The notes under the pieces were generated by a model. That model was given only the letters and a program-made list of their open reading frames with translations. It was not told where the DNA came from and did no database searches. Both the position numbers and the translations under genes were made by a program. Positions 12,904 through 47,237 of a stretch of 64,000 bases of DNA are shown here, piece after piece (position 1 is the stretch's first letter; every line of letters begins with the position of its first letter). Source of the DNA: Haloferax denitrificans ATCC 35960 (GTDB taxonomy: Archaea > Halobacteriota > Halobacteria > Halobacteriales > Haloferacaceae); assembly GCF_000337795.1 (NCBI RefSeq), contig NZ_AOLP01000009.1, positions 62,001-126,000 on the forward strand. The letters run 5' to 3'.

Positions 12904-15477
12904 TCAGCGGTACTCCGAGCCGACGACCTCGCGGATTCGTTCCGCGGTGACTTGGCCGACGCCGCGGACCTCTCTGAGGTCGTCCTCGTTTGCGGTCATG
13001 ACCGCCTCGACGCTCCCGAACGCTTCGAGCAGGGTCCGCGCCGTGACCGGGCCGATGTCGGCGATGGCGGAGACGACGTACTCCTGTTGCTCGTCGAGCG
13101 TCTTCGCGCTCTTGCCGCCGTGGACGCTCACGGTGCGCTCGCGGTCCGTCTGCTCGCGGGTGGCGATGGTCGCCAGCATCTCCGCGGTGTCGTCTTCGTC
13201 CTCGGTGAAAAGCACGCTCACGTTGAAGTCGACCGCGACCGACGACAGCGCCCCGCGAATCGCGCCGGGGTGGATGTTGCGCTCCTCGTAGAGGCCGCGC
13301 CCCTCGATGACGAGAAGCGGCCGGGCGTAGTGGCGCGTGAGGTCTGCGACCTGCTCGAATATCGAGCGGTCGCCGCCCGTGAGCGTGTCGAGGAAGTCCG
13401 AGACGCTCTTTCGCTCGACCGCGACGCGGTCCGAGAGGACGTAGTCGCCGACCGCGAGCGTCTCCAGTCGGGTCGTCAGGTCCTCGCGCTTCGAGAGGGT
13501 GCGGGCGATGTTGGAGTCGAGTTCGCGCTGGTCGACGACGATTTCGACGGTCTCCTCGTCGTCGGTTCCCGCCGCGGCGACGGTGGCCGGGTCGTCCGCC
13601 TCGTCGCGCTCGGGGGAATCGCCGTCGCTGTCGTCGCGGTCGTCGCCCTCATCGCCCTTATCGCCCCCGTCGCCGTCGTCCGCCCGCGCCAACTCCTCGT
13701 CCGAGGGACCGAAGTCGGCGAGGCCGGACTGCCCGTCGGGGTCGGTCGCGGCGGCGGCCGCGGTCTCTCCGTTCGAGGCGGACGACCCGGCGGCCGACGC
13801 CTCGTTCGCACCGCCCTCGCTCGCGGCGTCAACCCCCTCGTTTCCGGTGGAACTCCCCGCGTCACCGGCGGAATTCCCGTCGTCTCCGGCGAACGCCGAG
13901 AGGTCGCGCTGGGAGGGGTCGAGTTCGGCTTCGAGGTCGTCGGCCGCGCCCTTGAGGTCCCGAAGCTCGTTTTGCATCGTCTTCTCGCGGCGGCGCGATA
14001 TCCAGAAGTACGCCTCGTCGCGAGTGTCCTCGGCGAGGAGGACGACCACGCGGCCGTCGGCCTGCCGGCCGGTCCGGCCCTTCCGCTGGATGGACCGAAT
14101 GGCCGTCGGCACGGGTTCGAAAAAGAGCACGAGGTCGACCTCGGGCACGTCGAGGCCCTCTTCCGCGACGGACGTCGAGACCAGCACCTCGAACTCGCCG
14201 TTTCGGAACTTGTCGAGGGTCTCCTGCTGTTCGTTCTGGGTCATCCCGTCGGAGCCCTCGCGGTCGCCCTGTCCGACGAACCGCCGGACCGAGAAGCTCT
14301 CCGAGAGGAACTCCGTGAGCGCCTCGGCCGTGTCGCGGGACTCGGTGAAGACGATGACGCGCTCGCCGTTCTGGATGCCGAGCGTCTCCGCGAGGAGGAT
14401 GCGCGTCTTCCTGAACTTCGGGTGGAGGCCGTCGAACGACTCGGCTTTCCGCATCGCCTCGCGGACCTTCGGCTCGGCGACGAGTCGCTGGCTCGCCTTC
14501 GACGCGCCCGACGACCGGGCGGCGTTGCGCTGGCGCTCGAAGTACCGCCGGACCGACTCGACCGACTGGGTCTCGACGAGTTCGACCGCCCGGCGGAGCT
14601 TCATCACCTCCGCGTGCGTGGACATCCCCTTGTAGCCCTCCGACTTGTCGGCGTTCATCAGCCGCTGGAGCTCCGCGCGCATCCGGTTGAGCTTCTTCTG
14701 GGAGATATCGGGCTTCGTCGACTTGGTGACGCCCAACTGCTTGAGCTTCTCCAGCCGGTCGGTGATGACCTCGTTGAGGGCGTCGCGTATCTCCAGAATC
14801 TCGTCGGGGAGCTGGATGCGGTTCCACTCGACGTCCGTGTCGTGGGTGTACTCCGACACGTCGGCGTCCTCCTCGGTCATCACCTCCACGTCGACGATAC
14901 CGAGGTTCTCACAGACTTCGAGGATGGCCTCCTCGTCGCCGCCGGGCGAGGCGCTCATCCCCGTGACGAGCGGGTCTTCGGCGTCGGCGTGGTAGCGCTC
15001 GGCGATGTAGACGTAGGCGTAGTCGCCGCTGGCGCGATGACACTCGTCGAAGGTGAGGTGCGTCACGTCCCGAAGCGAGATGCGGTTGCCGATGAGGTCG
15101 TTTTCGATGACCTGCGGCGTGGCGATGACGATTTGGGCGTCCTCCCAGAGCGCGGCCCGGTCGTCGGGCCGAACGTCGCCGGTGAAGACGACGATTTCGT
15201 CGTCCGGGACGGTCAGCGCCTCGCGGTAGAAGTCGGCGTGCTGTTGGACGAGCGGCTTCGTCGGCGCGAGAAACAGCGACTTCCCGCCCACGTCGTAGAG
15301 CCGCTGGGCCGTGACGAGCAGGCTGACGGTCGTCTTCCCGAGACCGGTGGGGAGACAGACCAGCGTGTGGCCGTTGCGCGCGGTACCGGCGAGGCGAATC
15401 TGATAGAGCCGCCGCTCGATGAACGACGGCGCGAGTAGCGGGTGGTCCACGTACGCAACGTCCTCAGAGGCCGACAT
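12904..15477 (-). CDS. hef: Hef helicase-nuclease (Hef/FANCM-type)
   Basis: Processes stalled forks; the archaeal counterpart of FANCM/XPF. The 857 residues comprise a SF2 helicase with Walker A PTGLGKTT (about residue 42-49), the DECH box TFDECHRASG (about 140), and motif VI (QRKGRTGR, about 460). An acidic low-complexity linker follows (about 530-640, rich in Asp/Gly/Ser), then an XPF-type nuclease with ERKSVSDF (about 700) and two C-terminal helix-hairpin-helix motifs (DIGPVTARTLLEAFGS and VRGVGQVTAERI). Hef is known in Haloferax volcanii as essential when the Holliday junction resolvase Hjc is absent. An ORB-like sequence is embedded in the linker (13831-13853). Confidence 0.97.
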   Translation of the reverse strand: MSASEDVAYVDHPLLAPSFIERRLYQIRLAGTARNGHTLVCLPTGLGKTTVSLLVTAQRLYDVGGKSLFLAPTKPLVQQHADFYREALTVPDDEIVVFTGDVRPDDRAALWEDAQIVIATPQVIENDLIGNRISLRDVTHLTFDECHRASGDYAYVYIAERYHADAEDPLVTGMSASPGGDEEAILEVCENLGIVDVEVMTEEDADVSEYTHDTDVEWNRIQLPDEILEIRDALNEVITDRLEKLKQLGVTKSTKPDISQKKLNRMRAELQRLMNADKSEGYKGMSTHAEVMKLRRAVELVETQSVESVRRYFERQRNAARSSGASKASQRLVAEPKVREAMRKAESFDGLHPKFRKTRILLAETLGIQNGERVIVFTESRDTAEALTEFLSESFSVRRFVGQGDREGSDGMTQNEQQETLDKFRNGEFEVLVSTSVAEEGLDVPEVDLVLFFEPVPTAIRSIQRKGRTGRQADGRVVVLLAEDTRDEAYFWISRRREKTMQNELRDLKGAADDLEAELDPSQRDLSAFAGDDGNSAGDAGSSTGNEGVDAASEGGANEASAAGSSASNGETAAAAATDPDGQSGLADFGPSDEELARADDGDGGDKGDEGDDRDDSDGDSPERDEADDPATVAAAGTDDEETVEIVVDQRELDSNIARTLSKREDLTTRLETLAVGDYVLSDRVAVERKSVSDFLDTLTGGDRSIFEQVADLTRHYARPLLVIEGRGLYEERNIHPGAIRGALSSVAVDFNVSVLFTEDEDDTAEMLATIATREQTDRERTVSVHGGKSAKTLDEQQEYVVSAIADIGPVTARTLLEAFGSVEAVMTANEDDLREVRGVGQVTAERIREVVGSEYR
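13831..13853 (-). promoter_or_regulatory. ORB-like sequence inside hef linker
   Basis: Minus-strand reading contains GTTCCACCGG directly followed by AAACGAGGGGGTT, which matches the origin recognition box pattern seen in oriC (TTCCAC..GAAAC.AAGGGGT) at nearly every position. It falls in the part of hef encoding the disordered linker, where codon constraint is low. A functional Orc1 site is inference. Confidence 0.45.
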
Positions 15478-15563
15478 CGGTGACGATTGCTCGCCCTCGC
15501 CGATAAGGGTTCGCAGAGCAGGGTGAAACTAAAGGAGTCCGCCGGAAGCGACCGCGGCGGTCG

Positions 15564-15677
15564 TTACCCAGCGCTGTCGGCGGTATCGAGGTCGGGGTCG
15601 TCTGGTCGCGCGGTCGGGAGCGACGCTCCGAGGAGCGACGCCCACTCGGCGACCTTCTCGTTGTGCGGATTGGACAT
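15564..15677 (-). CDS. Putative 37-residue protein
   Basis: Short ORF MSNPHNEKVAEWASLLGASL followed by a Pro/Asp-rich tail. Third codon positions are mostly C/G as in real genes here. A strong TATA-like element (TTATATACG on the minus strand, 15711-15719) sits about 35 nt upstream of its ATG. A Trp-containing amphipathic helix is predicted at residues 6-19; no metal-binding residues are present. It lies between oapC and hef on the same strand, with 86 nt to hef. I do not recognise the family; it could also be a leader peptide in the hef transcript. Confidence 0.5.
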   Translation of the reverse strand: MSNPHNEKVAEWASLLGASLPTARPDDPDLDTADSAG

Positions 15678-15710
15678 AGCGCTTCCCCAAGGAGATATAC
15701 TCTCAACTAT

Positions 15711-15719
15711 CGTATATAA
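15711..15719 (-). promoter_or_regulatory. TATA-like element upstream of small ORF/hef
   Basis: The minus strand reads TTATATACG, one of the best archaeal TATA matches in the window. A second AT stretch (GTATATCTC) lies 12 nt downstream. The position fits a transcript starting around 15685-15690, just upstream of the ATG at 15677. Confidence 0.5.
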
Positions 15720-15772
15720 CGGTTGTGCCGATTCGACGGATGGACTCGTACGAGCGAGACCGGGAGACCGTC

Positions 15773-15794
15773 GCTCCACCGGAAACAGTGGGGT
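15773..15794 (+). promoter_or_regulatory. ORB-like sequence between small ORF and oapC
   Basis: The plus strand reads GCTCCACCGG followed by AAACAGTGGGGT. Compared with the core origin ORB at 18642 (GCTCCACCCG then AAACAAAGGGGT), only three of 22 positions differ. It is intergenic, about 2.7 kb left of the origin core. Binding by Orc1 is inferred. Confidence 0.5.
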
Positions 15795-15822
15795 CGAGCG
15801 CGGTCGGCCGCGGGAGCCGCGG

Positions 15823-16833
15823 TCAGTCCTCGCTGTTGCCGGGACCCCACGAGTCCGGGACTTCGATGACGTACCGGCCGTCCTCGCGGAGCGAGATGAT
15901 GTACTCGCTTCGGTCGTACAGCTCCATGAGGTTGAGCTCGTACTGACCGGGATTGACGATTTTGATGCTCTCGAACTGGTCGTTGAGCTCCTCGCGGAGC
16001 TGGTCAAGGTCGGGTCGCTCGTCGGACGACGGCTCGATGACCGTGCCGTCGGCGTCCGTGGGCGCGGCGTCCGCGGGCTGGCCGGCCGCCGCGTCGGGGG
16101 CAGGAGGCACGTCGGGGTCCGAAGGCGCTTCCGACGGCGTCTCCGCCGCCGAACCGCGTCGGTTCGCATCGGCCGCGGCGAGTTCCTCCGGCGTGACGAT
16201 GTCGCTTCGGGCGCTCTTCTGGGAGTTGTCCTCGTCCGTCTCGCGCGCGTTGATTGTACTGGGGTCTCGATTCGAGGGCGATGACGAACGCGGCGAGCTA
16301 TCGGACTGACCCGCCGCGGGCTCCCCTCGGGGTTCGTTCCGCGACGCCGGTGGCTCTTGGGGGTCTGCCCCCGGCGACTCGCCGGGCGCCGACGGCCACT
16401 CACCCCACCCGCGGGGGTCGGGTTCGGGTCCGCTCCCCGTGTCGGCCGCGTCACCCGCGTCGCTCGACCCGGTCGCCTCGGTCGGCGACGGCTCGCTTCG
16501 GGTCGAACCCGCGGCGTCGCCGGTCTCGGTTCGCTGTGGGGCGTCGGCGTTCGCGTTCGCCCAGTCGCTGACGGTCATCGACTCCTCGTCGGTCGAGTCG
16601 GGATGGGACTGTTGCTGTGCGCGGTCTCGGACGGCGTCGGCCGCCGAGGAGGTCAGGTCCCGCGTTCCGGCGCCGCCCGCCGACGGCGTGTTATCGCTTG
16701 CGCTCGCGGGAGCGCTCCCGCTCGACGCGGGCTTGAACTGAAACTTGTTGCCGCCGCAGTTCGGGCACCCCGAAAGCATCTCCTTCGAGCCGTCGGGGAA
16801 CACCTTACCGCACGTGGTGCATTGATGTGGCAT
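15823..16833 (-). CDS. oapC: Origin-associated zinc-ribbon protein OapC
   Basis: Third gene of the origin-linked oap operon. The N-terminus MPHQCTTCGKVF...CPNCGG is a four-cysteine zinc ribbon (two CxxC pairs at about residues 5-8 and 22-25) characteristic of the OapC/ArvC family. A roughly 210-residue low-complexity stretch rich in Ser, Asp, Pro and Ala follows, then a conserved C-terminal domain of about 85 residues (RPDLDQLREELNDQFESIKI... YELNLMELYDRSEYIISL). Total length is 336. The zinc ribbon suggests nucleic-acid or protein binding. The family is tied to the small GTPase two genes upstream. Spacing from oapB is about 48 nt. Confidence 0.85.
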   Translation of the reverse strand: MPHQCTTCGKVFPDGSKEMLSGCPNCGGNKFQFKPASSGSAPASASDNTPSAGGAGTRDLTSSAADAVRDRAQQQSHPDSTDEESMTVSDWANANADAPQRTETGDAAGSTRSEPSPTEATGSSDAGDAADTGSGPEPDPRGWGEWPSAPGESPGADPQEPPASRNEPRGEPAAGQSDSSPRSSSPSNRDPSTINARETDEDNSQKSARSDIVTPEELAAADANRRGSAAETPSEAPSDPDVPPAPDAAAGQPADAAPTDADGTVIEPSSDERPDLDQLREELNDQFESIKIVNPGQYELNLMELYDRSEYIISLREDGRYVIEVPDSWGPGNSED

Positions 16834-16881
16834 TGGTGGATGGTAGCGCCGGATGGCGCGTGAGGGCGTTCGTGGGACCCC

Positions 16882-17274: not shown

Positions 17275-17280
17275 GGTGAA

Positions 17281-17922
17281 TCACGCGAAGTACTCCGCGA
17301 TTTTGGCGTACACTTCGTCCATGTTCTCCCCTTCGAGCGCTGACAACTCGACTGTTTCGTGCTGGGGGTACGCGTTCGCGATGCGCTCGACGTTCGCCTC
17401 TTCGAGGTCGATCTTGTTCGCGAAGATGAGCACGGGCAGGTCCTGGCTCTCGATGATGCCGATGAGCATCGTGTTGACCTGCGAAATCGGGTCTTTCGTA
17501 CTGTCGAGCACGTAGATGACGCCGTCGACGTCCTCGCGGAGCCAGTGCATGGCCTCGGCGACGCCCTCGGTCGCCTCGCGGGACCGGCGGACGGCGTCGT
17601 CCTTCTCCATGTCGTGTTCGAGGAACTCCTTGTAATCGACTTTCGTCGTGACACCCGGCGTGTCGACGATGTCGATGGTGACTTTCTTGCCGTTCCGCTC
17701 GATTTCGACGTTCTCCTTCCGCCTGGCGCGGCGAGTCTCGTGAGGGATGTGGCTCTCGGGACCGATGGCGTCACCGGTCCAGTCACGGGCGATACGGTTT
17801 GCGAGAGTCGTCTTCCCGGCGTTGGGCGGGCCATATATACCGATCCGCTTCGGCTCGCTCTCCGAAAAGAGCCGGTCGACGACTCGTGAGATGCTGTCTC
17901 TTAAATCTGTGAGCAGTCCCAT
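17281..17922 (-). CDS. oapA: Era-like small GTPase OapA (ArvA)
   Basis: GTP-binding protein of 213 residues. I chose the ATG at 17922 (MGLLTDLRDSISRVVDRLF) rather than an upstream one, because a Shine-Dalgarno GGGAGG precedes it and an amphipathic helix starts there. G1 is GPPNAGKTT (about 30-38), G3 is DTPGVT (about 85), G4 is NKID (about 168) and G5 is SALEGE (about 195), so all nucleotide-binding elements are intact. The basic N-terminal helix may attach to membrane. From memory, the H. volcanii homologue drives extracellular vesicle formation and was renamed ArvA. It heads the oapABC operon, transcribed away from oriC. Confidence 0.93.
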   Translation of the reverse strand: MGLLTDLRDSISRVVDRLFSESEPKRIGIYGPPNAGKTTLANRIARDWTGDAIGPESHIPHETRRARRKENVEIERNGKKVTIDIVDTPGVTTKVDYKEFLEHDMEKDDAVRRSREATEGVAEAMHWLREDVDGVIYVLDSTKDPISQVNTMLIGIIESQDLPVLIFANKIDLEEANVERIANAYPQHETVELSALEGENMDEVYAKIAEYFA

Positions 17923-17928
17923 CCTGGG

Positions 17929-17934
17929 CCTCCC
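17929..17934 (-). promoter_or_regulatory. Shine-Dalgarno site of oapA
   Basis: The minus strand reads GGGAGG with six bases before the ATG at 17922, inside a second GGGAGGTGC repeat just upstream. This is unusual in a window dominated by leaderless starts. It decides in favour of the 17922 start over the one at 17976. Confidence 0.6.
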
Positions 17935-18153
17935 GCACCTCCCGAACGCGTCGTGGAGGGCGTATGGAGGTATCACCCAACCGGACTCACTTAAGCACTA
18001 CGTCAGACACCAGTCACGTGGGAGACAAGACGACAGAAAGGAACGGCGAAACGGCGGCCGACTCGGCGAGCCGGCATCGAGCGGAGGAGATTCGGCCTGC
18101 GGACGTCCGGTTGCGGCGTGTCGAACGGTCGACGTGAAACCGGGCGACGTCGG

Positions 18154-18179
18154 GGTCGGAGTTGTAGGTCGGAGTTGTA
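18154..18179 (+). repeat. 13-bp perfect tandem repeat in origin region
   Basis: GGTCGGAGTTGTA occurs twice in direct succession (18154-18166 and 18167-18179), left of the ORB cluster. No role is known; it could be a binding site pair or slippage product. Confidence 0.8.
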
Positions 18180-18445
18180 GTTTTGTGGTAACTGTTACTT
18201 CGGGCGTACACGTGCGTCCCCCGAACCAACGGGATGAGCGTCATCTGCATCGTTCTCCAGTGAATCCCGAACGTTCTCCGGCGAACCTCACACGGTGCCG
18301 GACGGCATTCGTGAAACGCGAACAGCGTTCGCGAAGCCACTGAATCAGTTCGACTCGGAATGACCGCACGCCGGGAGTCGCAGACGCGACACGGCGTTGG
18401 GGGGGGTTCCGACGGACGCGAAACACTCTACCCGGTAACACCCCC

Positions 18446-18467
18446 ACCCCTTCGTTTCGGGTGGAAC
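18446..18467 (-). promoter_or_regulatory. Origin recognition box, left inverted copy
   Basis: The minus strand reads GTTCCACCCG followed by AAACGAAGGGGT, then a G-string (GGGGGTG) on the same strand, as in typical haloarchaeal ORBs. It is oriented opposite to the ORBs on the right side of the AT-rich stretch. Confidence 0.9.
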
Positions 18468-18471
18468 GGCT

Positions 18472-18490
18472 CGAAGGGGTGGGTGGGGGG
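18472..18490 (+). repeat. G-rich block beside left ORB
   Basis: CGAAGGGGTGGGTGGGGGG on the plus strand resembles an ORB right half (CGAAGGGGT) plus a long G-string. With runs of four, three and six G it could form a G-quadruplex. It directly borders the AT-rich stretch. Confidence 0.7.
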
Positions 18491-18511
18491 AGACCGCTAG
18501 ACGGCGGTGAG

Positions 18512-18595
18512 ACGTTAATTGAATCCTAGGTGTGGGTAATAATATAGTATTTCTCTCTACTACGGATATGGTACGGATACATTTGTGATAAAACC
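18512..18595. other. AT-rich duplex-unwinding element
   Basis: About 84 bp with roughly two-thirds A+T, in a region otherwise very G+C rich, between the inverted ORBs. It includes AATAATATAGTATTTC and a direct repeat of TACGGATA (18561-18568 and 18572-18579). This is the probable site of initial strand opening by Orc1. Confidence 0.85.
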
Positions 18596-18641
18596 ACCCC
18601 TTTTTCAAGAATCGCCGAGACCCCCTCCCCACCGATTCACG

Positions 18642-18663
18642 GCTCCACCCGAAACAAAGGGGT
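18642..18663 (+). promoter_or_regulatory. Origin recognition box, right copy 1
   Basis: Plus strand GCTCCACCCG followed by AAACAAAGGGGT and a G-string (GTGGGG). It is the first ORB to the right of the AT-rich element and is inverted relative to the 18446 copy. Confidence 0.9.
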
Positions 18664-18717
18664 GTGGGGCAATCGACACCCAGGCGTTTCCCGTCGAACT
18701 GGAGAACCACCACTTAA

Positions 18718-18739
18718 TTGCACAGGAAACCGAGGGGTT
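18718..18739 (+). promoter_or_regulatory. Degenerate origin recognition box, right copy 2
   Basis: TTGCACAGGAAAC followed by CGAGGGGTT. The right half matches the other ORBs well and the left half is diverged. Spacing from the neighbouring ORBs is about 76-79 bp on both sides, roughly seven helical turns. Confidence 0.7.
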
Positions 18740-18796
18740 AGACAGCGACGAGAACCGTTCTATCTCCCGATTTTTCGAAAAGCGCGTTTCCGGCGT

Positions 18797-18818
18797 CTCC
18801 ACTCGAAACAGAGGGGTT
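18797..18818 (+). promoter_or_regulatory. Origin recognition box, right copy 3
   Basis: CTCCACTCGAAAC followed by AGAGGGGTT, plus orientation, a strong match to the consensus. No long G-string follows (TCGACCC instead). Confidence 0.88.
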
Positions 18819-18984
18819 CGACCCACCGATTTTTCTCGTCGGACGCCACCCACACGCTGAGTTCCACTCTGACTGCCTCCGATTGTCGGTTCGCGTGGAC
18901 CGCAGACTCGACTCGGAACCGTCGGTCGTCAGAGCCGAGAACAACTCTGACGGCTCGACCCGTCTCGACTTGGTGCGACTCGGC

Positions 18985-19060
18985 GCGTCTTTGTTCGACC
19001 CGCCGTGGTTCGTTCGACTAGTGCGTCTTTCGTTCGTCTCGTTCGACCCGCCGTAGTTCG
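18985..19060 (+). repeat. Imperfect direct repeat in origin-orc1 spacer
   Basis: GCGTCTTT...GTTCGACCCGCCGT(G/A)GTTCG occurs twice (18985-19012 and 19023-19060), the second copy with a 10-nt insertion (CGTTCGTCT region). The shared 3' portion TTCGACCCGCCG is identical. Function unknown. Confidence 0.7.
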
Positions 19061-19402
19061 AGAAGGTTCTCGATTCGATGACCAACCTCACCCACATGTC
19101 TCCTTCGTCCGGTCGCTCGGCGACTCCGCAACTGAGCGTTCGTCTATTCGCTTCTCGGTCAACCGACGGACGCCCACTTACTACAGCCGTCGCGTCCGAC
19201 GATATCGCGACTGTTCGTGTTGAAACGGTCCCGACCCCCCGAGTTCCGGTCGAACGACGGCAGACGAGTCGGAGAAGTAAGATTTTTGTACCGACTGTTC
19301 GTTTGGTTCCTTTGCATCATCTGGAATCGCCTTCTTCGGCGTGGTGTGAAAATGCCGACTATCTCCGGCTTCACACACCCTATGCGCCGGTTTGGGGCGG
19401 CA

Positions 19403-19425
19403 ATTCCACTTGAAACAAAGGGGTA
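19403..19425 (+). promoter_or_regulatory. Origin recognition box at the orc1 start
   Basis: ATTCCACTTGAAAC followed by AAAGGGGTA ends six bases before the orc1 ATG at 19432. Because haloarchaeal transcripts usually start at or just before the ATG, this ORB occupies the core promoter or initiation region. It is a likely site for Orc1 to repress its own gene (inference). Confidence 0.85.
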
Positions 19426-19431
19426 TTCACG

Positions 19432-21138
19432 ATGGACGAGGAAGAGAATCCGAGAGGCGGCACACGAGAGGGAGCCGGGGACAGCAGGTCGGACGACATC
19501 GTCGCGGACGCCGACCCCGGCGCACCGAGTACCGACGCGTCCGACGGCGACGCGCCTGCCGACGGCTCTTCCGCCGCGGACGACGTATCCTCCGAAGAGA
19601 GCGTCTCCCCCGAGGACGACGAGGACGTGTCTCCCGAAGACATCGACATTCAGGCGAGCATCGGCCCCGACGCCGACGCGCCCGACGGGGACCTCGACCA
19701 GCACAAAGACCCCGACGTCGGCCTCGACAAGGTCGTGCTCAACGACGACGAGGGGTCGAAGGGGCTGTTCGACGACCTCCTCGCCGGCGAGCCGATCTTC
19801 GAGAACAAGGAGGTCCTCCGCCCGTCGTACACCCCGCACGAACTCCCCCACCGGACCGACCAGATAAACCAGATGGCGACGATTCTCGTCTCCGCTCTGC
19901 GCGGGGAGACGCCGTCGAACATCCTCATCTACGGGAAGACCGGGACCGGCAAGACCGCGAGCGCGAAGTTCGTCAGTCAGGAGCTCGAATCCACCTCCCA
20001 GAAGTACGACGTGCCCTGCGAGGTCGAGTACATCAACTGCGAGGTGACCGACACGCAGTACCGCGTGCTCGCCCAGCTCGCCAACAAGTTCATCGAGAAG
20101 AACGTCGAGCGCATCGAGGCTGAACAGGAGCGCCTCGACGAGATGCGCACGCGGGCGACCGAAGACCCAAACGCTCTCGCGGACACGCCGTACGACTCCA
20201 TCGCCGAAATCGACGAGCGCGCGGCGGAACTCGACGACGACGCCGACGAGATGGAGACGGTGCCGATGACCGGGTGGCCGACCGACCGCGTCTACACGAC
20301 CTTTTTCGACGCCGTCGACTACAAGGAGCGGGTGGTCGTCATCATGCTCGACGAAATCGACAAACTGGTCGAGAAGTCGGGCGACGACACGCTCTACAAC
20401 CTCTCGCGGATGAACTCCGAACTCGACAACTCCCGCATCTCCATCATGGGCATCTCGAACGACCTGAAGTTCACCGACTTCCTCGACCCCCGGGTCAAAT
20501 CGAGCCTCGGCGAGGAGGAAATCGTCTTCCCGCCGTACGACGCCAACCAGCTCCGCGACATCCTCCAGCACCGCGCCGACGTGGCGTTCAAGCCCGGCGC
20601 GCTCACCGACGACGTGATTCCGCTGTGCGCCGCGTTCGCCGCGCAGGAACACGGCGACGCCCGGCGCGCGCTCGACCTGCTCCGCACGGCCGGCGAACTC
20701 GCGGAGCGCGGGCAGGCCGACACCGTCGAGGAGGCCCACGTCCGGCAGGCGCAGGACAAAATCGAACTCGACCGCGTGGTCGAGGTCGTCCGCACCCTCC
20801 CCACGCAGTCGAAAATCGTCCTCTTCGCCATCATCCTCCTGGAGAAAAACGGCGTTCGCAACATCAACACCGGCGAGGTGTTCAACATCTACAAGCGCCT
20901 CTGCGAGGAGATCGACGCCGACGTGCTGACCCAGCGCCGCGTCACCGACCTCATCTCGGAACTCGACATGCTCGGCATCGTCAACGCCGTCGTCGTCTCG
21001 AAGGGTCGCTACGGCCGGACCAAGGAAATCAGCCTTTCTGTCCCCATCGACGAGACCGAGGCCGTTTTGCTGACGGACTCCCGACTCGGCGACATCGAGA
21101 GCGCACAGCCGTTCGTGCAGGCGCGGTTCGACAACTGA
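19432..21138 (+). CDS. orc1: Origin-binding initiator Orc1/Cdc6
   Basis: Binds ORBs at the adjacent oriC1 and loads MCM. The 568 residues start with an about 120-residue acidic, Asp/Ser/Gly-rich tail that is probably disordered. An AAA+ ATPase follows, with Walker A GKTGTGKTAS (about 167-176), Walker B VVIMLDEIDKL (about 301-311), sensor-1 IMGISND (about 337-343) and the sensor-2 arginine region GDARRALDLL (about 407). The C-terminal winged helix (about 470-568) includes RVTDLISELDMLGIV. The ATG at 19432 immediately follows an ORB. This is the origin-linked paralogue (Orc1 of oriC1); other Orc genes are expected elsewhere. Confidence 0.97.
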   Translation: MDEEENPRGGTREGAGDSRSDDIVADADPGAPSTDASDGDAPADGSSAADDVSSEESVSPEDDEDVSPEDIDIQASIGPDADAPDGDLDQHKDPDVGLDKVVLNDDEGSKGLFDDLLAGEPIFENKEVLRPSYTPHELPHRTDQINQMATILVSALRGETPSNILIYGKTGTGKTASAKFVSQELESTSQKYDVPCEVEYINCEVTDTQYRVLAQLANKFIEKNVERIEAEQERLDEMRTRATEDPNALADTPYDSIAEIDERAAELDDDADEMETVPMTGWPTDRVYTTFFDAVDYKERVVVIMLDEIDKLVEKSGDDTLYNLSRMNSELDNSRISIMGISNDLKFTDFLDPRVKSSLGEEEIVFPPYDANQLRDILQHRADVAFKPGALTDDVIPLCAAFAAQEHGDARRALDLLRTAGELAERGQADTVEEAHVRQAQDKIELDRVVEVVRTLPTQSKIVLFAIILLEKNGVRNINTGEVFNIYKRLCEEIDADVLTQRRVTDLISELDMLGIVNAVVVSKGRYGRTKEISLSVPIDETEAVLLTDSRLGDIESAQPFVQARFDN

Positions 21139-21191
21139 GACTGAAGAACGAAGTCCCGAAGTCCGACGCCGACGCTGTTACTTTTCCCGCG

Positions 21192-22136: not shown

Positions 22137-23738
22137 GTGCCACTGGAGACGCCGGCGCGCATCGTCCGAGCGCTCGTCGGTCGCGGCTACAACGCCGAGC
22201 GCGAGGCCGTGACACTCATCGCCGGCTCCGACGACCCCGGCCGCACCCTCGCCCGCGTCGTCGAAGCCGCCCCGGACGACGCGCTTCGCATCACCGCCGA
22301 CCACGTCCGCGAGGTGCTCGCCTCCGCCCCCGCCGCGGACCCGCCGGGAACCGCACCGACGGGGCCGACCGCCGCGGACGCCGCCGCCGCATCCGACGCC
22401 GTCGCGTCCCACACCGCCGCGTCAGACCCCTCCGCTTCTGGTGCAACATCGCACGACAACGCGGCTCACACCTCTCAATCGACTCCAGCCGAAGCGAAGG
22501 TGGGGTCGGGCGGCCGGAACGTCGACCCGGCGCTTCGGTCCCTCGAAATCGCCAACGACATGACCGGCCAGTCGACGGGGACCGGCGAGTACGACGACTT
22601 CGTGAAGGTGTTCCGCGACCGCTACGAGAAGCTCTCGAAGATGCTCCGCGGGCGCGTCAACCACCGCCCCGCGAAGGCCATCTCGAACATGTCCGGCGGC
22701 GAGGACGCGGAACTCATCGGCCTCGTCGACGACGTTCGGTCCACCAAGAGCGGTCACTGGATTATCGACCTCGAGGACACGACGGGGACGTTCCCCTGTC
22801 TCGTGATGAAGGACAAGGACATCGCGGGCTACGTCGACGAACTCCTCATGGACGAGTGCATCGCGGTGCAGGGGACGCTGTCGGGCGACGCGGGCATCCT
22901 CTTCGTCGACTCGATGCACTTCCCCGACGTGCCGCGGAGCCACCGCCCCAACACCGCCGACAGGGACGTGCAGGCGGCGCTCATCTCGGACGTGCACGTC
23001 GGCAGTCAGGAGTTCATGGCCGGCGCGTGGAATCGCTTCGCCGACTGGCTCCACACCGAGGAGGCAGAGCGCATCGAGTACCTCCTCATCGCCGGCGACA
23101 TGGTCGAAGGCGTCGGCGTCTACCCGAATCAGGACGAGGAACTCGACGTCATCGACATCTACGAGCAGTACGAGGCGTTCTCCGAGCACCTCAAATCGGT
23201 CCCCGGCGACCTCGACATCGTGATGATTCCGGGCAACCACGACGCGGTCCGACTCGCGGAGCCCCAACCCGGCTTCGACGACGAACTCCGCGATATCATG
23301 TCGGCCCACGACGCCCGCATCACGAGCAACCCCTCGATGGTCACCCTCGAAGGCGTCAACGTGCTCATGTACCACGGCGTCTCGCTCGACGAGGTCATCG
23401 CCGAACTGCCGGCGGACAAGGCGAGCTACGACGAGCCGCACAAGGCGATGTACCAGCTCCTGAAAAAGCGCCACGTCGCGCCGCAGTTCGGGGGTCACAC
23501 CCGCCTCGCGCCGGAGGAACTCGACTATCTCGTCATGGAGGACGTCCCCGACATCTTCCACACCGGCCACGTCCACAAGCTCGGCTGGGGCAAGTACCAC
23601 AACGTCCTCGCCGTCAACTCCGGCTGTTGGCAGGCCCAGACCGACTTCCAGAAGTCCGTCAACATCGACCCCGACGCCGGTTACGCGCCCATCGTCGACC
23701 TCGACACGCTGAACATGACGGTCCGGAAGTTCTCCTGA
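22137..23738 (+). CDS. polD1: DNA polymerase D small subunit (DP1)
   Basis: Exonuclease/phosphodiesterase subunit of the replicative archaeal polymerase D. I place the start at GTG 22137 (MPLETPARIVRAL, 533 residues); an in-frame GTG at 22119 would add six residues. A variable Ala/Pro-rich linker (about 70-125) is followed by the OB domain (KSGHWIIDLEDTTGTFPCLV). The calcineurin-like phosphoesterase domain follows with ISDVHVGS, AGDMVEG, PGNHD and TGHVHKLGWG, which together supply the metal ligands of the Mre11-like nuclease. The proximity to orc1 is conserved in haloarchaea. Confidence 0.95.
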   Translation: MPLETPARIVRALVGRGYNAEREAVTLIAGSDDPGRTLARVVEAAPDDALRITADHVREVLASAPAADPPGTAPTGPTAADAAAASDAVASHTAASDPSASGATSHDNAAHTSQSTPAEAKVGSGGRNVDPALRSLEIANDMTGQSTGTGEYDDFVKVFRDRYEKLSKMLRGRVNHRPAKAISNMSGGEDAELIGLVDDVRSTKSGHWIIDLEDTTGTFPCLVMKDKDIAGYVDELLMDECIAVQGTLSGDAGILFVDSMHFPDVPRSHRPNTADRDVQAALISDVHVGSQEFMAGAWNRFADWLHTEEAERIEYLLIAGDMVEGVGVYPNQDEELDVIDIYEQYEAFSEHLKSVPGDLDIVMIPGNHDAVRLAEPQPGFDDELRDIMSAHDARITSNPSMVTLEGVNVLMYHGVSLDEVIAELPADKASYDEPHKAMYQLLKKRHVAPQFGGHTRLAPEELDYLVMEDVPDIFHTGHVHKLGWGKYHNVLAVNSGCWQAQTDFQKSVNIDPDAGYAPIVDLDTLNMTVRKFS

Positions 23739-25050: not shown

Positions 25051-25074
25051 AACCCCTTCGCTTCCACTCGAACT
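25051..25074 (-). promoter_or_regulatory. ORB-like sequence between convergent genes
   Basis: The minus strand reads AGTTCGAGTGGAAGC followed by GAAGGGGTT; compare the ORB pattern GTTCCAGTGGAAAC, then GAAGGGGT. It lies in the 121-nt gap between the stop of the OYE gene and the stop of the ZIP gene. Function is inferred from similarity only. Confidence 0.5.
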
Positions 25075-30190: not shown

Positions 30191-30763
30191 TTACTCGCCG
30201 TTGTAGAAGGCGGTCTCGACGGCGTCGCCGACGGTCGCGGCGGCGGCGCAGACGGCGTGTTCGAACTCGTGGTCGTACAGTTCGCGGGCCGCGTCGGCGG
30301 CGGTCTCCGCGTCGAGGTCGAACGCCCGCGGGTCGTCTTCCTCGTAGGTCGCCACGAGCGTGGGTTCGGAGACGGCTTCCACGACGAGGGCGTCCTTGCG
30401 GACGATGCCGATGAAGGCCTCGTCGTCGCCGACGACGCCCGCGATGCGGGGCGTGTCGTAGTCGTCCTTCTCGTAGTCGAGCGCGAGCAGAATCTCCGCG
30501 AGGGCGTCCCGCGGCGGGTAGCCGAGGTCGAGTTTCTCCGCGATGGGGTCGACCTGCGAGCCGTTGCCGACGACGACGTAGTCGCCGCCCTCGCGGACGC
30601 AGTTGTAGGCGATGTAGGGGTTGTCGGTCTCGGGGGCGTCGGGCGTCGGTCCGACGGTCAGGGCGTCGTCTCGGTCGACGACCTGTCGGTTCGGGAAGGA
30701 CCGAGAGGAGACGCGATACGCACCGATTCCGGGGCCAACGACGACGAAACGTCCGACGTACAT
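30191..30763 (-). CDS. purO: Archaeal IMP cyclohydrolase
   Basis: Final step of de novo purine synthesis, closing FAICAR to IMP; the archaeal PurO replaces the PurH cyclohydrolase domain. The start is the ATG at 30763 ([12 protein letters not shown]), which fits the conserved N-terminus; a longer upstream reading adds hydrophobic sequence. In 190 residues the hallmark segments are [11 protein letters not shown] (about 17-27), NPYIAYNC (about 49-56), [12 protein letters not shown] (about 64-75) and the C-terminal [11 protein letters not shown]. It is tandem with the phosphoesterase gene with a 48-nt gap, and divergent from tRNA-Gln. Confidence 0.9.
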
Positions 30764-31013: not shown

Positions 31014-31071
31014 CTCCAGTTGAAACGAAGGGGTAGGTTTCAGAAACCAAAGGGGTCCGTTTCGAGTGGAG
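31014..31071 (+). promoter_or_regulatory. Cluster of ORB-like sequences downstream of tRNA-Gln
   Basis: CTCCAGTTGAAAC followed by GAAGGGGT (31014-31034) is a near-consensus ORB. Directly after it GTTTCAGAAACC followed by AAAGGGGTCC (31037-31058) repeats the right half. TTTCGAGTGGAG (31060-31071) is the left half on the opposite strand. The cluster fills the gap between tRNA-Gln and the convergent cgi121 gene. Confidence 0.55.
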
Positions 31072-31130: not shown

Positions 31131-31625
31131 TTAGCGGTCGACCGCGAGGAGCGCGACTCGCTCTCTGACCAGCGCGGGGAGGTCGCCGTCGGCGACGCGC
31201 AACTCCGTCTCGCCCACGTCGAACACCTCGCGGACGAGCGCTTCGTCGTAGTCGCCGAGGGTGTCTGCGGGTTCGAGGTCGAGTCGGTCGAACAGCGCGG
31301 CCTCGGCGTCGGCCTCGTCGCCGCCGTCGACGAGAATCACGACGGGGAGCGTCCCCTCCGAGACGCCGATTTCGAACGCGCGGTTAATCTGCCGGCGGCC
31401 GCTGGCGTAGAGGAGGATTTCGACGGCGCGGTCGCGGGCGATTTCGTTGCCCCGGGCGATGGCTCGGTCGGCGAGTTCGGTCGCCCGTTCGAGGTGCTCG
31501 CGGTCCACGACGTACCGGGCGTCGAACGCCTGCACCGTCGCGCCCGTCTCGTCGGCCACCTCGCCGACTGCCGCGATGAACGAATCGAGGTCGGAGACGG
31601 TCGCCTCGGCCTCGACGAGCCTCAT
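31131..31625 (-). CDS. cgi121: KEOPS complex subunit Cgi121
   Basis: Peripheral subunit of the KEOPS complex, which with Kae1 and Bud32 makes N6-threonylcarbamoyl-adenosine on tRNAs reading ANN codons. In the KEOPS literature Cgi121 binds tRNA and Bud32. The 164 residues include a long N-terminal region with [23 protein letters not shown] and the conserved [19 protein letters not shown] (about 68-87), followed by VVILVDGG. The gene overlaps the upstream hel308 stop by 4 nt (ATGA), so the two are co-translated. The pairing with a DNA helicase is repeatedly seen in haloarchaea. Confidence 0.88.
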
Positions 31626-34615: not shown

Positions 34616-34638
34616 AACCCCCCCGTTTCGACTGGAGA
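34616..34638 (-). promoter_or_regulatory. ORB-like sequence upstream of small membrane gene
   Basis: The minus strand reads TCTCCAGTCGAAAC followed by GGGGGGGTT. It lies 55 nt before the ATG of the 28-codon gene at 34693. The left half fits the ORB pattern; the right half has a G-run in place of GAAG. Confidence 0.4.
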
Positions 34639-37629: not shown

Positions 37630-38766
37630 CTACTCGACGATGTGGGCCGCCGCCGGGTCGAATCCGACCTCCATCGTCGTCCCGACCTCGAACCCCGCGC
37701 CCGACTGTTCGCCGCCGTCGTCGACCGCCACGACGAGTTCCGTCCCGCCCCAGTCGAGTCGCACCCGCGTCGTCGCCCCCTGAAACTCGGTGTCGACGAC
37801 GGTCCCGCGAATCCGGTTCGTCCCCGCGTCGGCCCGGAGCCGTTCGGGCCGGACGCAGAAGGTGAGTTCGTCGCCGGGTTCGGGACGCGCGGGCCGGTCG
37901 CCGTCTCTCCCGTCGTTTTTAGCGCGTTTGTCGGAGACCGCCCTCGCCCGCCCGAGGACGCGTCGCCCTTCGGCGAGCGTGAACACCGCGTCGCCGACGC
38001 CGACGCGAATCCCCCCCGTTTCCGGTCGAGACTCGACGACCGCGTCGAGGACGTTGTTCTCGCCGAGGAACTCCGCGACGAACCGCGTCCGCGGTCGGTG
38101 GTAGAGTTCGCGGGGGTCGCCGACCTGCTCGACGCGGCCGCGGTTGAGGACGGCCACCCGGTCGGAGACCGCGAGCGCCTCCGACTGGTCGTGGGTGACG
38201 TAGACGGTCGTCACGCCGAGTTCCGACTGGATGCGCTTTACCTGTCGGCGGAGGCGGTCGCGGAGGCGGGCGTCCAGCGCCGACATCGGCTCGTCGAGGA
38301 GGAGCAGGTCCGGGCCGGGAGCGAGCGCGCGGGCGAGCGCGACCCGCTGTTGTTGCCCGCCCGAAAGCGAGTCGGGGTCGCGGTCTTCGAACCCCGCGAG
38401 GTCGACGAGGTCAAGCAGTTCCGCGACGCGGTCGTCGCGGGTGCCGCCGCCCGGCGGGTCGGTAAACCGGAGGCCGTAGGCGACGTTCTCGCCGACGCTG
38501 AGATGCGGGAACAGCGCGTAGTTCTGGAACACGACGCCGACGCCGCGCGACTCGGGCGCGACGCCGGCCATCGACTCGCCGTCGAAGCGGACGGTCCCCT
38601 CGGTCGGGGCCTCGAACCCCGCGATACAGCGGAGCGTGGTCGTCTTCCCACAGCCAGAGGGGCCGACGAGCGTGAAGAACTCGCCGTCGTCGACCGACAG
38701 CGAGACGGAATCGAGCGCCGTCGCCGACCCGTAGCGTTTGGACACCGCGTCGAGTTCGAGTCTCAC
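37630..38766 (-). CDS. ABC importer ATPase (thiamine/iron-type)
   Basis: ATPase of the three-gene importer with the permease and binding protein upstream. The 378 residues carry Walker A GPSGCGKTT (about 35-43), Q-loop FQNYALFP, signature LSGGQQQRVALARAL (about 135-149), Walker B LLLLDEPMSALDARLRDRL (about 155-173), and a switch histidine in YVTHDQSEALAVSD. An extended C-terminal regulatory OB (TOBE) domain (about 245-378) is interrupted by a charged spacer (RAVSDKRAKNDGRDGDR). Similar haloarchaeal operons are annotated as probable thiamine transporters. An ORB-like sequence is embedded at 38009. Confidence 0.9.
   Translation of the reverse strand: MRLELDAVSKRYGSATALDSVSLSVDDGEFFTLVGPSGCGKTTTLRCIAGFEAPTEGTVRFDGESMAGVAPESRGVGVVFQNYALFPHLSVGENVAYGLRFTDPPGGGTRDDRVAELLDLVDLAGFEDRDPDSLSGGQQQRVALARALAPGPDLLLLDEPMSALDARLRDRLRRQVKRIQSELGVTTVYVTHDQSEALAVSDRVAVLNRGRVEQVGDPRELYHRPRTRFVAEFLGENNVLDAVVESRPETGGIRVGVGDAVFTLAEGRRVLGRARAVSDKRAKNDGRDGDRPARPEPGDELTFCVRPERLRADAGTNRIRGTVVDTEFQGATTRVRLDWGGTELVVAVDDGGEQSGAGFEVGTTMEVGFDPAAAHIVE
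38009..38032 (-). promoter_or_regulatory. ORB-like sequence inside ABC ATPase gene
   Basis: Minus-strand GTCTCGACCGGAAAC followed by GGGGGGGAT resembles the site at 34616 (TCTCCAGTCGAAAC then GGGGGGGTT). It encodes part of the TOBE domain, so chance similarity is possible. Confidence 0.25.
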
Positions 38767-40579: not shown

Positions 40580-40588
40580 CGGCTCACC

Positions 40589-42940: not shown

Positions 42941-42949
42941 CCCTGCTCG

Positions 42950-43726: not shown

Positions 43727-43977
43727 GACCCCATGTTTCCGGGCCGCGGATTTAGGTCCGCCCCTCCTCGCACCCCTCGCCACGTGTCCGGGGTAGCGGA
43801 CGTTGTTGCTGGTTCCGTCGGATACCGGATTCAGACAGCGCGTGACGGCTGTTCTCCGAGTCGCTTTCGCCGTCTCCCCCGACATATGCAGGTCAATATT
43901 GCCGCATCACCCGAGGTCAGGCCGTACATGCCGTCGCTGTGAGAGTTATGGGCCTTCCTGTTGTACGGGGAAACGCG

Positions 43978-44838: not shown

Positions 44839-44888
44839 GACGCCTCGTTTCGGTTCGATTCGACCGACCGTACGGTTCTTTTTGCGGC

Positions 44889-46331
44889 TTACATCGGGAG
44901 GACGCTGATTCCGACAGCGACGATGACGCCCGCGCCGAGAAGCACCATCACGCAGTAGCCCATGATGTCGCGGACCGACAGGCCGCTGATGGAGAGAAGC
45001 GGGATGGCCCAGAAGGGTTGAATCATGTTGGTCCACGCGTCGCCCCACGAGGCGGCGACGGCGACTCGCGGGATGGACTCGCCGGACGCCTTCGCGGCCG
45101 TGACGAGCGTCTCGCCGATGACCGCCCACTCGCCACCGCCCGAGGGGACGAAGAAGTTCACGAGGCCGGCGGTGAAGAAGGCGAAAGCCGGGAGCGTCCC
45201 GTCGGGCGCGACGGCGACCATGCCCTGTGCGATCTGCGTGGCGAGGCTGACCGACCCCTCGGGTGCGTAGGCCATGATGCCCATGATGCCCGCGTAGAAG
45301 GGGAACTGGAGGATGATGCCCCAGACGTTCTCGACGGCCTCGACGATGGCCTCGATGTACGCCTTGGGCGTCCCGTGGAACAGCAGGCCGAGGAAGAGGA
45401 AGCCGAAGTTGACGATGTTCAGGTTGAGGTTGTTCCACGGCATCGTCCCGTTCTGGATTCCCTCGACGAAGTACAGCCCGACGGCGAACAGGCCGACGAG
45501 GCCGATTGCCACGCCGATGCCGAGCGAGTGCTCGATGCGCGTGGCGAGCGAGGCGTCCTCGGGGACGGACGTGGAGGCCCACCCACCTGTCGCCTGTTCG
45601 CCGCCGTCGGCCGCCGCCTCGAACTCCGCGGGGTCGATGGGCGTCTTCTTCGCGTCGTCGGTCGGGTACATGAGCGCGAACAGCGCCGGCAGGAAGAGGA
45701 AGCCGACCGCGACGACCAACGCGAGGTTGGCGACCGTGAAGATGGTCCCGCCGGTGCCGAACGTCGCGTCGAGGATGCCCGCTTCGATGAGGAAGTTATC
45801 CTCGGTGTTCAACAGGAGCGGAATCGACCCCGCGAGGCCGCCGTGCCAGACGACGAACCCGGAGTACGCGCCGGCGACGACGATGGGGAAGTCGATGCCG
45901 CGCATCTCGGTCGCTATCTTCCGGGCGAAAAGCGCCCCGACGACGAGGCCCAGCCCCCAGTGGACGAACGACGCCGCGGCGGCGACGACCGGCACCATCG
46001 CGGCCGCGCCGCGCTCCGTGTTCGGGACGCGCGCGAGTCGCGTCAGGAGCCAGTCCACGGGCTTCGTCTGCGCGAGCGCGTAGCCCGTCATCAGGATGAG
46101 CGTCATCTGCATCCCGAACGAAAGCAGGTTCCAGAATCCGCCGTACCAGCCGTCGAGAAGCAGGTTCCCGGCGTGTCCGACGACGCCGGTCCCCTCGCCC
46201 GGAGCGACCGATACCAGCGCCAGCACGAACGCCACGCCCGTCAGAATGATGGCGAACAGAAACGCGTCGGGGAGGTACTGTTCGACCAGTTTCGAACTGC
46301 GCTCCGCCGCCTGCCTGATAGCGTTTGTCAT
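44889..46331 (-). CDS. atoE: AtoE-type short-chain fatty acid transporter
   Basis: Membrane carrier of the short-chain fatty acid transporter (AtoE) family, 480 residues from ATG 46331 (MTNAIRQAAERSSKLVEQYL); an upstream in-frame extension is unneeded. About ten to twelve hydrophobic segments. The hydrophobic blocks PDAFLFAIILTGVAFVLALV, ASFVHWGLGLVVGALFAR and FFVPSGGGEWAVIGETLV include the conserved FVPSGGG motif of the family. The promoter lies in a strongly A+T-rich stretch (46340-46380). It would import acetoacetate/butyrate-like acids; no atoAD genes are adjacent. Confidence 0.85.
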   Translation of the reverse strand: MTNAIRQAAERSSKLVEQYLPDAFLFAIILTGVAFVLALVSVAPGEGTGVVGHAGNLLLDGWYGGFWNLLSFGMQMTLILMTGYALAQTKPVDWLLTRLARVPNTERGAAAMVPVVAAAASFVHWGLGLVVGALFARKIATEMRGIDFPIVVAGAYSGFVVWHGGLAGSIPLLLNTEDNFLIEAGILDATFGTGGTIFTVANLALVVAVGFLFLPALFALMYPTDDAKKTPIDPAEFEAAADGGEQATGGWASTSVPEDASLATRIEHSLGIGVAIGLVGLFAVGLYFVEGIQNGTMPWNNLNLNIVNFGFLFLGLLFHGTPKAYIEAIVEAVENVWGIILQFPFYAGIMGIMAYAPEGSVSLATQIAQGMVAVAPDGTLPAFAFFTAGLVNFFVPSGGGEWAVIGETLVTAAKASGESIPRVAVAASWGDAWTNMIQPFWAIPLLSISGLSVRDIMGYCVMVLLGAGVIVAVGISVLPM

Positions 46332-46339
46332 AGCCTGAG

Positions 46340-46380
46340 TTATTTCATGATAATACGATACATAATGTTTAATATTCGGA
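46340..46380 (-). promoter_or_regulatory. AT-rich promoter region of the AtoE gene
   Basis: The minus strand contains ATTAAACATTATGTATCG and TATTATCATGAAATAAC in the 50 nt before the ATG at 46331, the most A+T-rich promoter in this half of the window. A likely TATA is within ATTAAAC at about 46366-46372. Confidence 0.5.
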
Positions 46381-46512
46381 CAGGTTCGGCTCGGTTGAAT
46401 GTCACGTACCGGCCGGCGGTTGACTCGTCGTTCGTCTCCGCGGCCGTCGCAGACTCGCGCCGGACTCGCCGCCGCCGATGGGTACAAACCCGAGACGACC
46501 ATACGGGGCCGT

Positions 46513-47112
46513 ATGACCGAACTCCTCGACACCCTCCGCGACGACCACGAGACGCCGCTTTCCCGACTCGGCTCCTCGAAGGCGCTGTACGCCGTCACCG
46601 GCGGCGAGATGGACGGCGACGCGGTCCGCGCGGCCGCCGCCGCCGAGGCCGCCGCCGCCGCCGACCTGTTCGACTGGTGGGCCGACGACGAACCGAACGA
46701 CGAGGCCGCCGCGCTCTTTTCGGACCTCGCCGACACCGCCCGCGACCACGCCGAGGCCGTCGGCGCGGAGCCGGACGGGTCGAAGCCGAACGTCTACGAC
46801 GTGCTCGCCGAGTTCGAGACCACCGACGGTCGCCTCGGCGGCGCGCTCGCCCGCGCGCTCGTGTCGCTGAAGACCGTCGAGCAGATGGTCGGCTTCTTCG
46901 TCGGCGACGCGGACCCGATGGCCGCAAACGACTTCCGCACGCTCAAGTCCGACCTCAACGACCAACTCGACACGCTCGACGCCGCCGTCTCCGACCTCGT
47001 CGAAGACGACGCCGTCGCCCGCGAGGCCGCCGACGCGGTGGTCGAAGCCGCCTACGACGAGTACGTCGAGACGCTGGAAGGCATGGGCGTCAAGCCGAAG
47101 AACGTCTGCTAA
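46513..47112 (+). CDS. Helical ferritin/rubrerythrin-like protein (tentative)
   Basis: 199 residues from ATG 46513 (MTELLDTLRDDHETPLSRLG); the frame upstream lacks coding character. The whole protein is alpha-helical, rich in Ala/Glu/Asp, with segments AAAAAEAAAAADLFDWWADDE and LADTARDHAEAVGAEPDG that resemble the E...E..H helix pairs of ferritin-like iron proteins. The metal-ligand pattern is incomplete, so iron binding is doubtful. A third helical pair (ALARALVSLKTVEQMVGFFV and DAVVEAAYDEYVETLEGMGV) completes a four-helix layout. Function unknown. Confidence 0.65.
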   Translation: MTELLDTLRDDHETPLSRLGSSKALYAVTGGEMDGDAVRAAAAAEAAAAADLFDWWADDEPNDEAAALFSDLADTARDHAEAVGAEPDGSKPNVYDVLAEFETTDGRLGGALARALVSLKTVEQMVGFFVGDADPMAANDFRTLKSDLNDQLDTLDAAVSDLVEDDAVAREAADAVVEAAYDEYVETLEGMGVKPKNVC

Positions 47113-47213
47113 CTCGCGTTTTCACACTCGGGGTCGCGGGGCGACCCACTCGGCGCGAAATCCGTCTTCGCTCACCGAGTGCCGACAGTGGCGAATGGCG
47201 GGCTAACGGGTGA

Positions 47214-47237
47214 GTTCCAGTAGAAACGAAGGGGTTT
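47214..47237 (+). promoter_or_regulatory. ORB-like sequence between convergent genes
   Basis: GTTCCAGTAGAAAC followed by GAAGGGGTTT is the closest match outside oriC to a full ORB. It lies in the 137-nt gap between the ferritin-like gene and the convergent 89-residue gene. Confidence 0.55.

Follow-up and report, generated by a model that had tools for sequence, protein, structure and literature searches.

Origin recognition boxes dispersed tens of kilobases around oriC1 of Haloferax denitrificans, a candidate reservoir for the initiator Orc1

We analysed 64,000 nucleotides of the Haloferax denitrificans ATCC 35960 genome (the window, C9:62001-126000, C9 being one of the 21 contigs of the 3.83-Mb genome), which contain the replication origin oriC1 and the gene of its initiator, orc1. 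Haloarchaeal origins adjacent to orc/cdc6 genes carry origin recognition boxes (ORBs) with a G-string (PMC3528665, PMC4595724), and an initial annotation of this DNA had noticed an ORB-like pattern at seven further loci. We found that the dispersed sites are real, specific and conserved. Their conservation indicates that in Haloferax they are genuine ORBs, which selection keeps at fixed places up to tens of kilobases from oriC1; sequence comparison suggests that other haloarchaea likewise keep ORBs near oriC1, at partly different places. The best explanation, to which we assign a probability of about one half, is an origin-proximal Orc1 reservoir which would titrate the initiator and restrain re-firing of oriC1.

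Our gene calls locate oriC1 in the gap 17922-19432 (positions are those of the window unless a contig is given). Within it are an AT-rich stretch at 18537, where GC content is 30% over 60 bp, and five ORBs, the last of them next to orc1:

18446..18465, minus strand: oriC1 ORB, left, inverted; exact pattern match, in 9/9 Haloferax regions
18644..18663, plus strand: oriC1 ORB; exact pattern match
18719..18738 (C9:80719), plus strand: oriC1 ORB, divergent, with 1 mismatch
18798..18817, plus strand: oriC1 ORB; exact match
19405..19424, plus strand: ORB 5' of orc1; exact match, its end 7 bases ahead of the start codon
19432..21138, plus strand: orc1, oriC1-type Orc1/Cdc6 with Cdc6_C and Cdc6_lid domains

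To judge from its position, the ORB next to orc1 may be an autoregulation site, and it starts 27 bp ahead of the called orc1 start in 7/9 Haloferax regions.

Exact matches to TCCANNNGAAACNNNGGGGT occur nine times in the whole genome, four in oriC1 and five dispersed, and all nine fall inside C9:75832-109235 (33 kb). The five dispersed exact matches thus have the full sequence of an oriC1-type ORB, core and halophile G-string. Allowing one mismatch raised the number to 13 by adding C9:43363, C9:80719 (in oriC1), C1:382718 and C1:412730, while reversed TCCANNNGAAACNNNGGGGT had no match genome-wide at up to one mismatch. At up to three mismatches specificity was gone (118+91 matches vs 61+65 in the control); such matches are largely background and were excluded from our claims. 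Within the window YTCCASTNGAAAC matched ten times at up to one mismatch, compared with 0.54 expected, and 0/100 shuffles reached ten; the weaker sites 25052 and 38010 are outside these ten. A position weight matrix (PWM) built from the five oriC1 ORBs found 15 places of at least 16 bits in C9:1-220000, those five included, vs a mean of 0.35 in 20 simulated sequences. The whole-genome scan, the reversed-pattern control and the simulated sequence led us to reject chance as the origin of the matches. A genome-wide frequency at chance level, which the initial annotation would have counted against its own proposal, was not obtained; strong matches concentrate at oriC1.

The dispersed sites in and around the window, with distances in kb from orc1, are the following:

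13832..13851, minus strand: ORB inside hef (-5.6 kb), between the helicase and nuclease domains
15775..15794, plus strand: ORB between oapC and hef (-3.7 kb); exact match, in 7/9 Haloferax regions
22426..22445, minus strand: ORB, left half of an inverted pair in DP1; from the PWM scan and conservation
22484..22503, plus strand: ORB, right half of the DP1 pair; 14.6 bits here, strong in many other species
25052..25071, minus strand: ORB between converging genes (+5.6 kb), in 9/9 regions
31015..31034, plus strand: ORB, left half of a conserved dyad (+11.6 kb); 14 core columns invariant in 9/9
31051..31070, minus strand: inverted half-site of the dyad, TCCA...GAAAC with the G-run on the other strand; from the alignment of 9 genomes
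34617..34636, minus strand: ORB upstream of the DUF7089 gene (+15 kb), recurring genus-wide
38010..38029, minus strand: weak ORB-like site of 14.6 bits in an ABC transporter ATPase gene
47216..47235, plus strand: ORB between converging genes (+28 kb), about 370 bp before uvrB (Pfam)
C9:43363, minus strand: outside the window, about 38 kb left of orc1, with 1 mismatch
C9:174674, minus strand: outside the window, from the PWM scan

The motif is present at all seven loci of the initial annotation, within 1 bp of the coordinates given there, and its statement that five of them are intergenic agrees with our gene calls. The intergenic bias which it proposed to test is therefore present (5/7 vs 12% non-coding DNA, binomial p 4.6e-4). 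Its list overlooked the inverted pair in DP1, and its span of -5 to +28 kb is too narrow for a set which extends, for example, to the site near -38 kb. Of the three sites said to lie between converging genes this is true for 25052, where the gap is converging in the gene calls of 8/9 regions, and for 47216; 31015 has a leftward gene on either side, that of IMP cyclohydrolase (30191-30763) and a CGI-121-like one (31131-31625), so the predicted bias towards convergent gaps holds for two sites, not three. For the weak site 38010, comparison between Haloferax regions gave ORB-like matches of 16-20 bits near +17 to +18 kb, within a gene of 349-403 amino acids, in 5/9 regions. A weak ORB-like match of 16.5 bits at 12475-12494 covers the beginning of the gene 12490-12879; at the cut-off applied it was found in one (G009) of the eight other regions.

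Conservation within the genus was assessed in two ways. The sites at 13832, 31015, 34617 and 47216 (-5.6, +11.6, +15 and +28 kb) recur with at most one mismatch in 15/15 Haloferax genomes, all four on the oriC1 contig in 11/15; in the remaining genomes (G001, G002, G003, G012) some sites are on another contig and were matched by motif and spacing only. In a comparison of nine regions of 80-90 kb, site position, strand and neighbours largely agree, and all nine have a single site or a pair between -35 and -42 kb. The dispersed sites are also found in Hfx. mucosum (L047), which we take to be a relative of Hfx. mediterranei; the orc1 product of the window is 90% identical to that of Hfx. mucosum and 93% to that of Haloferax larsenii (best segments). 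Alignment then showed how far each motif exceeds its 60-bp flanks. At +5.6 kb motif identity is 0.98 vs 0.30 in the flanks, and only 2/372 stretches of 20 columns are equally conserved or more. The corresponding values are 0.94 vs 0.52 (1/290) at +28 kb, 0.91 vs 0.28 (5/336) for the hef site, 0.96 vs 0.67 (7/274) at +11.6 kb, where the second dyad half 31051-31070 is visible in all nine aligned sequences, and 0.90 vs 0.38 (2/306) at -38 kb, aligned for 8/9 genomes with G007 omitted despite its match at -35.0 kb. Hence five of seven aligned sites (-38, -5.6, +5.6, +11.6 and +28 kb) are conserved islands in variable flanks.

The sites within DP1 and hef allowed selection on DNA to be separated from selection on protein. 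The genes concerned, together with the neighbour of the -3.7 kb site, are:

22137..23738, plus strand: DNA polymerase D small subunit (DP1), with DNA_pol_E_B and Metallophos domains; start from the gene caller
12904..15477, minus strand: presumably hef, a hef-like gene with helicase and ERCC4 nuclease (Pfam domains)
15823..16803, minus strand: oapC, origin-associated protein (PF09845); start from the gene caller

Genes were called with a simple codon-score caller and some starts are wrong, DP1 being called too short in several genomes. The inverted ORBs 22426(-) and 22484(+) are 58 bp apart and precede the first Pfam domain match of DP1. After removal of presumed duplicates (G004 = L048, G010 = L047), 25 of 35 non-redundant haloarchaeal DP1 genes carry the pair at a 12-bit cut-off. 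Among 19 non-haloarchaeal DP1 genes none has the pair and one (L105) has a single open-frame ORB. The spacing is 58 bp in 20 of the 25 genes; spacings of 55 (two genes), 70, 73 and 76 bp also occur, so strict helical phasing is not required. Our initial codon test was biased, as it used 24 of the 25 DP1 genes that had been picked for their pair; we therefore repeated it on a codon alignment of all 35 genes, unselected for the motif, testing third-base constraint given the amino acid in 521 columns. The seven most constrained coding columns all lie within the ORB pair, in a ranking which omits columns at or before the start codon (these hold three of the ten most extreme). At one ORB codon CCA or GCA is used in 33/35 genes, and a T precedes the CCA codon in 33/35 while the residue varies between Ser, Thr, Ala and Val. 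Since silent positions of the pair are constrained, selection on DP1 acts at the DNA level, which makes the pair an unusual protein-coding stretch constrained by putative initiator sites in its own DNA. The ORB of hef is read in frame 0 in nine Haloferax genomes and in frame 2, at about the same place, in Halosimplex and Halovenus; hef of Haloarcula pellucida (L062) has no ORB. The third-base constraint and the differing hef frames led us to reject protein-level conservation as the explanation for these sites in DP1 and hef.

These data bear on the idea that the dispersed ORBs are chance matches or functionless, decaying remnants of old origins. In its favour, the 38010 site and many matches with two to three mismatches are indistinguishable from background. 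For the set as a whole we consider it hardly tenable, as it is contradicted by the genome-wide clustering and the controls as well as by conservation above flanks, silent-site constraint and the frame-independence of the hef site.

Extra ORBs were also found in other genera. We compared 26 haloarchaeal loci of about 21 kb, of which 24 have at least one ORB of at least 18 bits outside oriC1, with a mean of 3.2 vs 0.03 in simulated sequence; this count left out -2.5 kb to +0.05 kb around the orc1 match, and in the Natrialbaceae loci L073 and L079 one or two of the "extra" matches may belong to oriC. Ten non-haloarchaeal loci had two extra ORBs in total. In five of eight genomes of other genera the oriC1 chromosome is complete. 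On these five there are 55 matches farther than 2 kb from oriC1, and 41 of them are less than 130 kb away, where about 4 would be expected under a uniform distribution. This tally covers matches with at most one mismatch on the oriC1 chromosome only, leaving out one Haladaptatus and three Halovenus matches on other contigs. Species are taken to be independent in the p-values. Some places are shared between genera: the site upstream of the IMP cyclohydrolase gene is also found in Halorussus and Natrialba, the site after a gene of 67 amino acids at -19042 in Halorussus and Haladaptatus, and the site before the DUF7089 gene in Haladaptatus. Across genera, ORBs occur inside or at the start of DP1.

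A distribution of this kind might also be expected if Orc1 on scattered ORBs marked, folded or segregated the origin region in the manner of parS, perhaps by recruiting other chromosome proteins. We think this unlikely but a serious rival of the reservoir, as it accommodates a cluster which spans tens of kilobases with the origin at its centre, mostly in gene gaps and at two sites between converging genes, the recurrence of four sites in 15/15 genomes and the concentration of matches towards oriC1 on five other chromosomes. The origin-proximal distribution is the part of a parS-type system that we observed; a spreading complex is conjecture, and neither spreading nor partner proteins have evidence here. 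ORBs far from oriC1 also argue against it: in Halovenus the DP1 pair is 96 kb from oriC1, and in Halosimplex a site 417 kb away is located at the 3' end of a DUF7089 homologue (58% identical), whereas the Haloferax site is at the gene's 5' end. An Orc1-marked origin domain with ORBs over about 100 kb, some within DP1 and Hef coding sequence, would be an archaeal counterpart of ParB-parS, and we put it forward as a tentative idea of low probability. If it is true, the same DNA encodes a protein linker and initiator binding sites in DP1 and hef.

The neighbouring genes suggest a further explanation, in which Orc1 would act as a transcription factor of adjacent replication and repair genes. These neighbours include DP1, hef, uvrB and an archaeal helicase, presumably Hel308-like, and in different genera a number of sites are found beside the same genes. 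One ORB, as described, ends just before the orc1 start, and the weak match at 12475, with its recurrence in 1/8 other regions, overlaps a gene start. The remaining intergenic sites, however, are placed either between the ends of two genes or 148-298 bp ahead of a start codon, and other sites are inside genes rather than at core promoters. We regard local regulation of this kind as unlikely for the set, though still a serious rival.

Secondary or dormant origins, an option raised by the initial annotation, are now disfavoured. The dispersed sites do include full ORBs with G-string, and the DP1 pair shares its inverted arrangement with the inner oriC1 pair. At the seven dispersed sites that we checked there is, however, no AT-rich element like that of oriC1 (no 60-bp stretch below 43% GC); the lowest 60-bp GC content is 0.43-0.57, compared with 0.30 at oriC1. 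In Hfx. mediterranei without oriC1, oriC2 and oriC3 the sole peak was oriC4, and the strain list has separate entries for deletions of oriC1 and of oriC1-cdc6A, from which it appears that this strain retained cdc6A (PMC4595724). An ORB-rich region of Haloarcula hispanica, oriC2D, had no autonomously replicating sequence (ARS) activity (PMC3936714). Given the lack of an AT-rich element and the firing of Hfx. mediterranei from oriC4 only, backup origins are very improbable. Of the roles proposed initially, titration fits best.

The motif belongs to the origin of the oriC1-type initiator and not to the origins of its paralogues. The ten other orc loci of this genome, searched with 1.5 kb flanks, have no full oriC1 motif and a loose partial match in one (L037), so other initiators were rejected as its owners. 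In eight of the ten, which were searched for repeats, we found repeats of other sequence. Dispersal at other origins was searched for with three other ORB types. The C8 origin (C8:143 kb, with another orc) has two outlying copies of its own ORB at C8:138377 and C8:112059, about 5 and 31 kb away; the C17 type has four local matches and two elsewhere at three mismatches, and the C6 type six local matches and three on C2. Dispersal is strongest at oriC1 and, because of these non-local copies, may extend to other origins. Two side observations concern sequences on other contigs. The one-mismatch ORB at C1:382718 (L183) recurs unchanged in G003, G008, G010 and G011. Outside the oriC1 region a motif that resembles the ORB but is distinct from it, GGAAACGATGGGGT or GGAAACAGTGGGGT with GTG or GTC following, is present at C2:110260, C2:156037, C6:13929 and C1:188925 (L179-L182).

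To our knowledge little is understood of what limits re-initiation at oriC1 in haloarchaea. An origin-proximal Orc1 reservoir could act as follows. Orc1 would occupy the scattered single and paired ORBs, which would not fire for want of an unwinding element and would compete with oriC1 for the initiator. Because they are close to the origin, the dispersed ORBs would be copied soon after initiation; the competing sites would approximately double early, and re-firing would be delayed. Autorepression through the ORB next to orc1 would add to this. In keeping with a titration locus, multiple boxes outside the origin are retained by selection.

Several observations weigh against the reservoir. The boxes form no dense cluster at one place, as in known titration loci, which hold many boxes together, but are singles or pairs over about 70 kb. 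Pure titration would need no fixed positions, and early duplication would explain only closeness to the origin. The distant Halovenus and Halosimplex sites also fit local roles. Conservation is uneven: the +15 kb site lies within conserved flanks (0.89 vs 0.70, with 59/258 stretches equalling or exceeding it), conservation of the -3.7 kb site is poor (0.69 vs 0.31, not in register, 117/321 stretches; aligned for 7/9 genomes, G005 and G007 being without match), and the full pair is absent from 10/35 haloarchaeal DP1 genes, nine of which have one half and one neither. The haloarchaeal loci L061 and L082 have no extra ORB, and the non-haloarchaeal control is partly blind because L108 and L117 give no match even at the origin. 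The lowest-GC stretches at 15775 and 31015 (0.43 and 0.45) belong to the lowest 0.7% of the window, while remaining far above oriC1 in GC content. In genetically accessible Haloferax, conserved extra putative initiator sites make titration, or an origin domain built by the initiator, directly testable.

Bacterial systems offer a comparison. E. coli datA is a single locus which promotes DnaA-ATP hydrolysis together with IHF; the analogy proposed here is that datA too is a chromosomal locus of initiator boxes with a negative effect on initiation. Bacterial parS sites, which are symmetric and bound by ParB, likewise lie scattered over tens of kilobases around the origin; the protein is a different one, and spreading is a feature of parS. 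In B. subtilis removal of all six DnaA-box clusters outside oriC led to early initiation (PMC5295017 citing Okumura 2012). These initiator boxes are likewise outside the origin and, by the cited title, oriC-proximal, but they are clusters for bacterial DnaA, whereas here we have single boxes or pairs of the archaeal ORB. This precedent for titration is contested, which also counts against a reservoir, since another passage of the same review holds that in B. subtilis no DnaA-box cluster of significant regulatory importance has been identified.

The closest parallel is oriC2D of Haloarcula hispanica, another case of extra ORBs outside an origin core in a haloarchaeon. It has 11 ORBs, could not be deleted alone and lowers replication of an oriC2 plasmid, for which initiator titration was proposed (PMC3936714). 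Its ORBs are gathered in one 722-bp gap downstream of oriC2-cdc6E and serve Cdc6E, in contrast to the singles and pairs described here, which are putative sites of the oriC1-type Orc1 spread over about 70 kb, partly within genes and in many genera. Origin surveys, as far as their available text goes, covered the intergenic regions adjoining cdc6, with ORBs occasionally in both regions flanking a cdc6 gene (PMC3528665, PMC4595724); the dispersed sites lie elsewhere and are without an unwinding element. In the accessible literature (among it PMC3528665, PMC3936714, PMC4441112, PMC4595724, PMC6063281, PMC7776575), most subscription papers and all supplements aside, we found no description of ORBs dispersed around oriC1. 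ORBs, titration and ORB-rich regions are thus already known, and what appears to be new, as far as this literature shows, is that ORBs are dispersed over tens of kilobases on either side of oriC1, that this is so in many genera of haloarchaea and that, to judge from codon usage and reading frames, the ORBs within DP1 and hef are selected at the DNA level.

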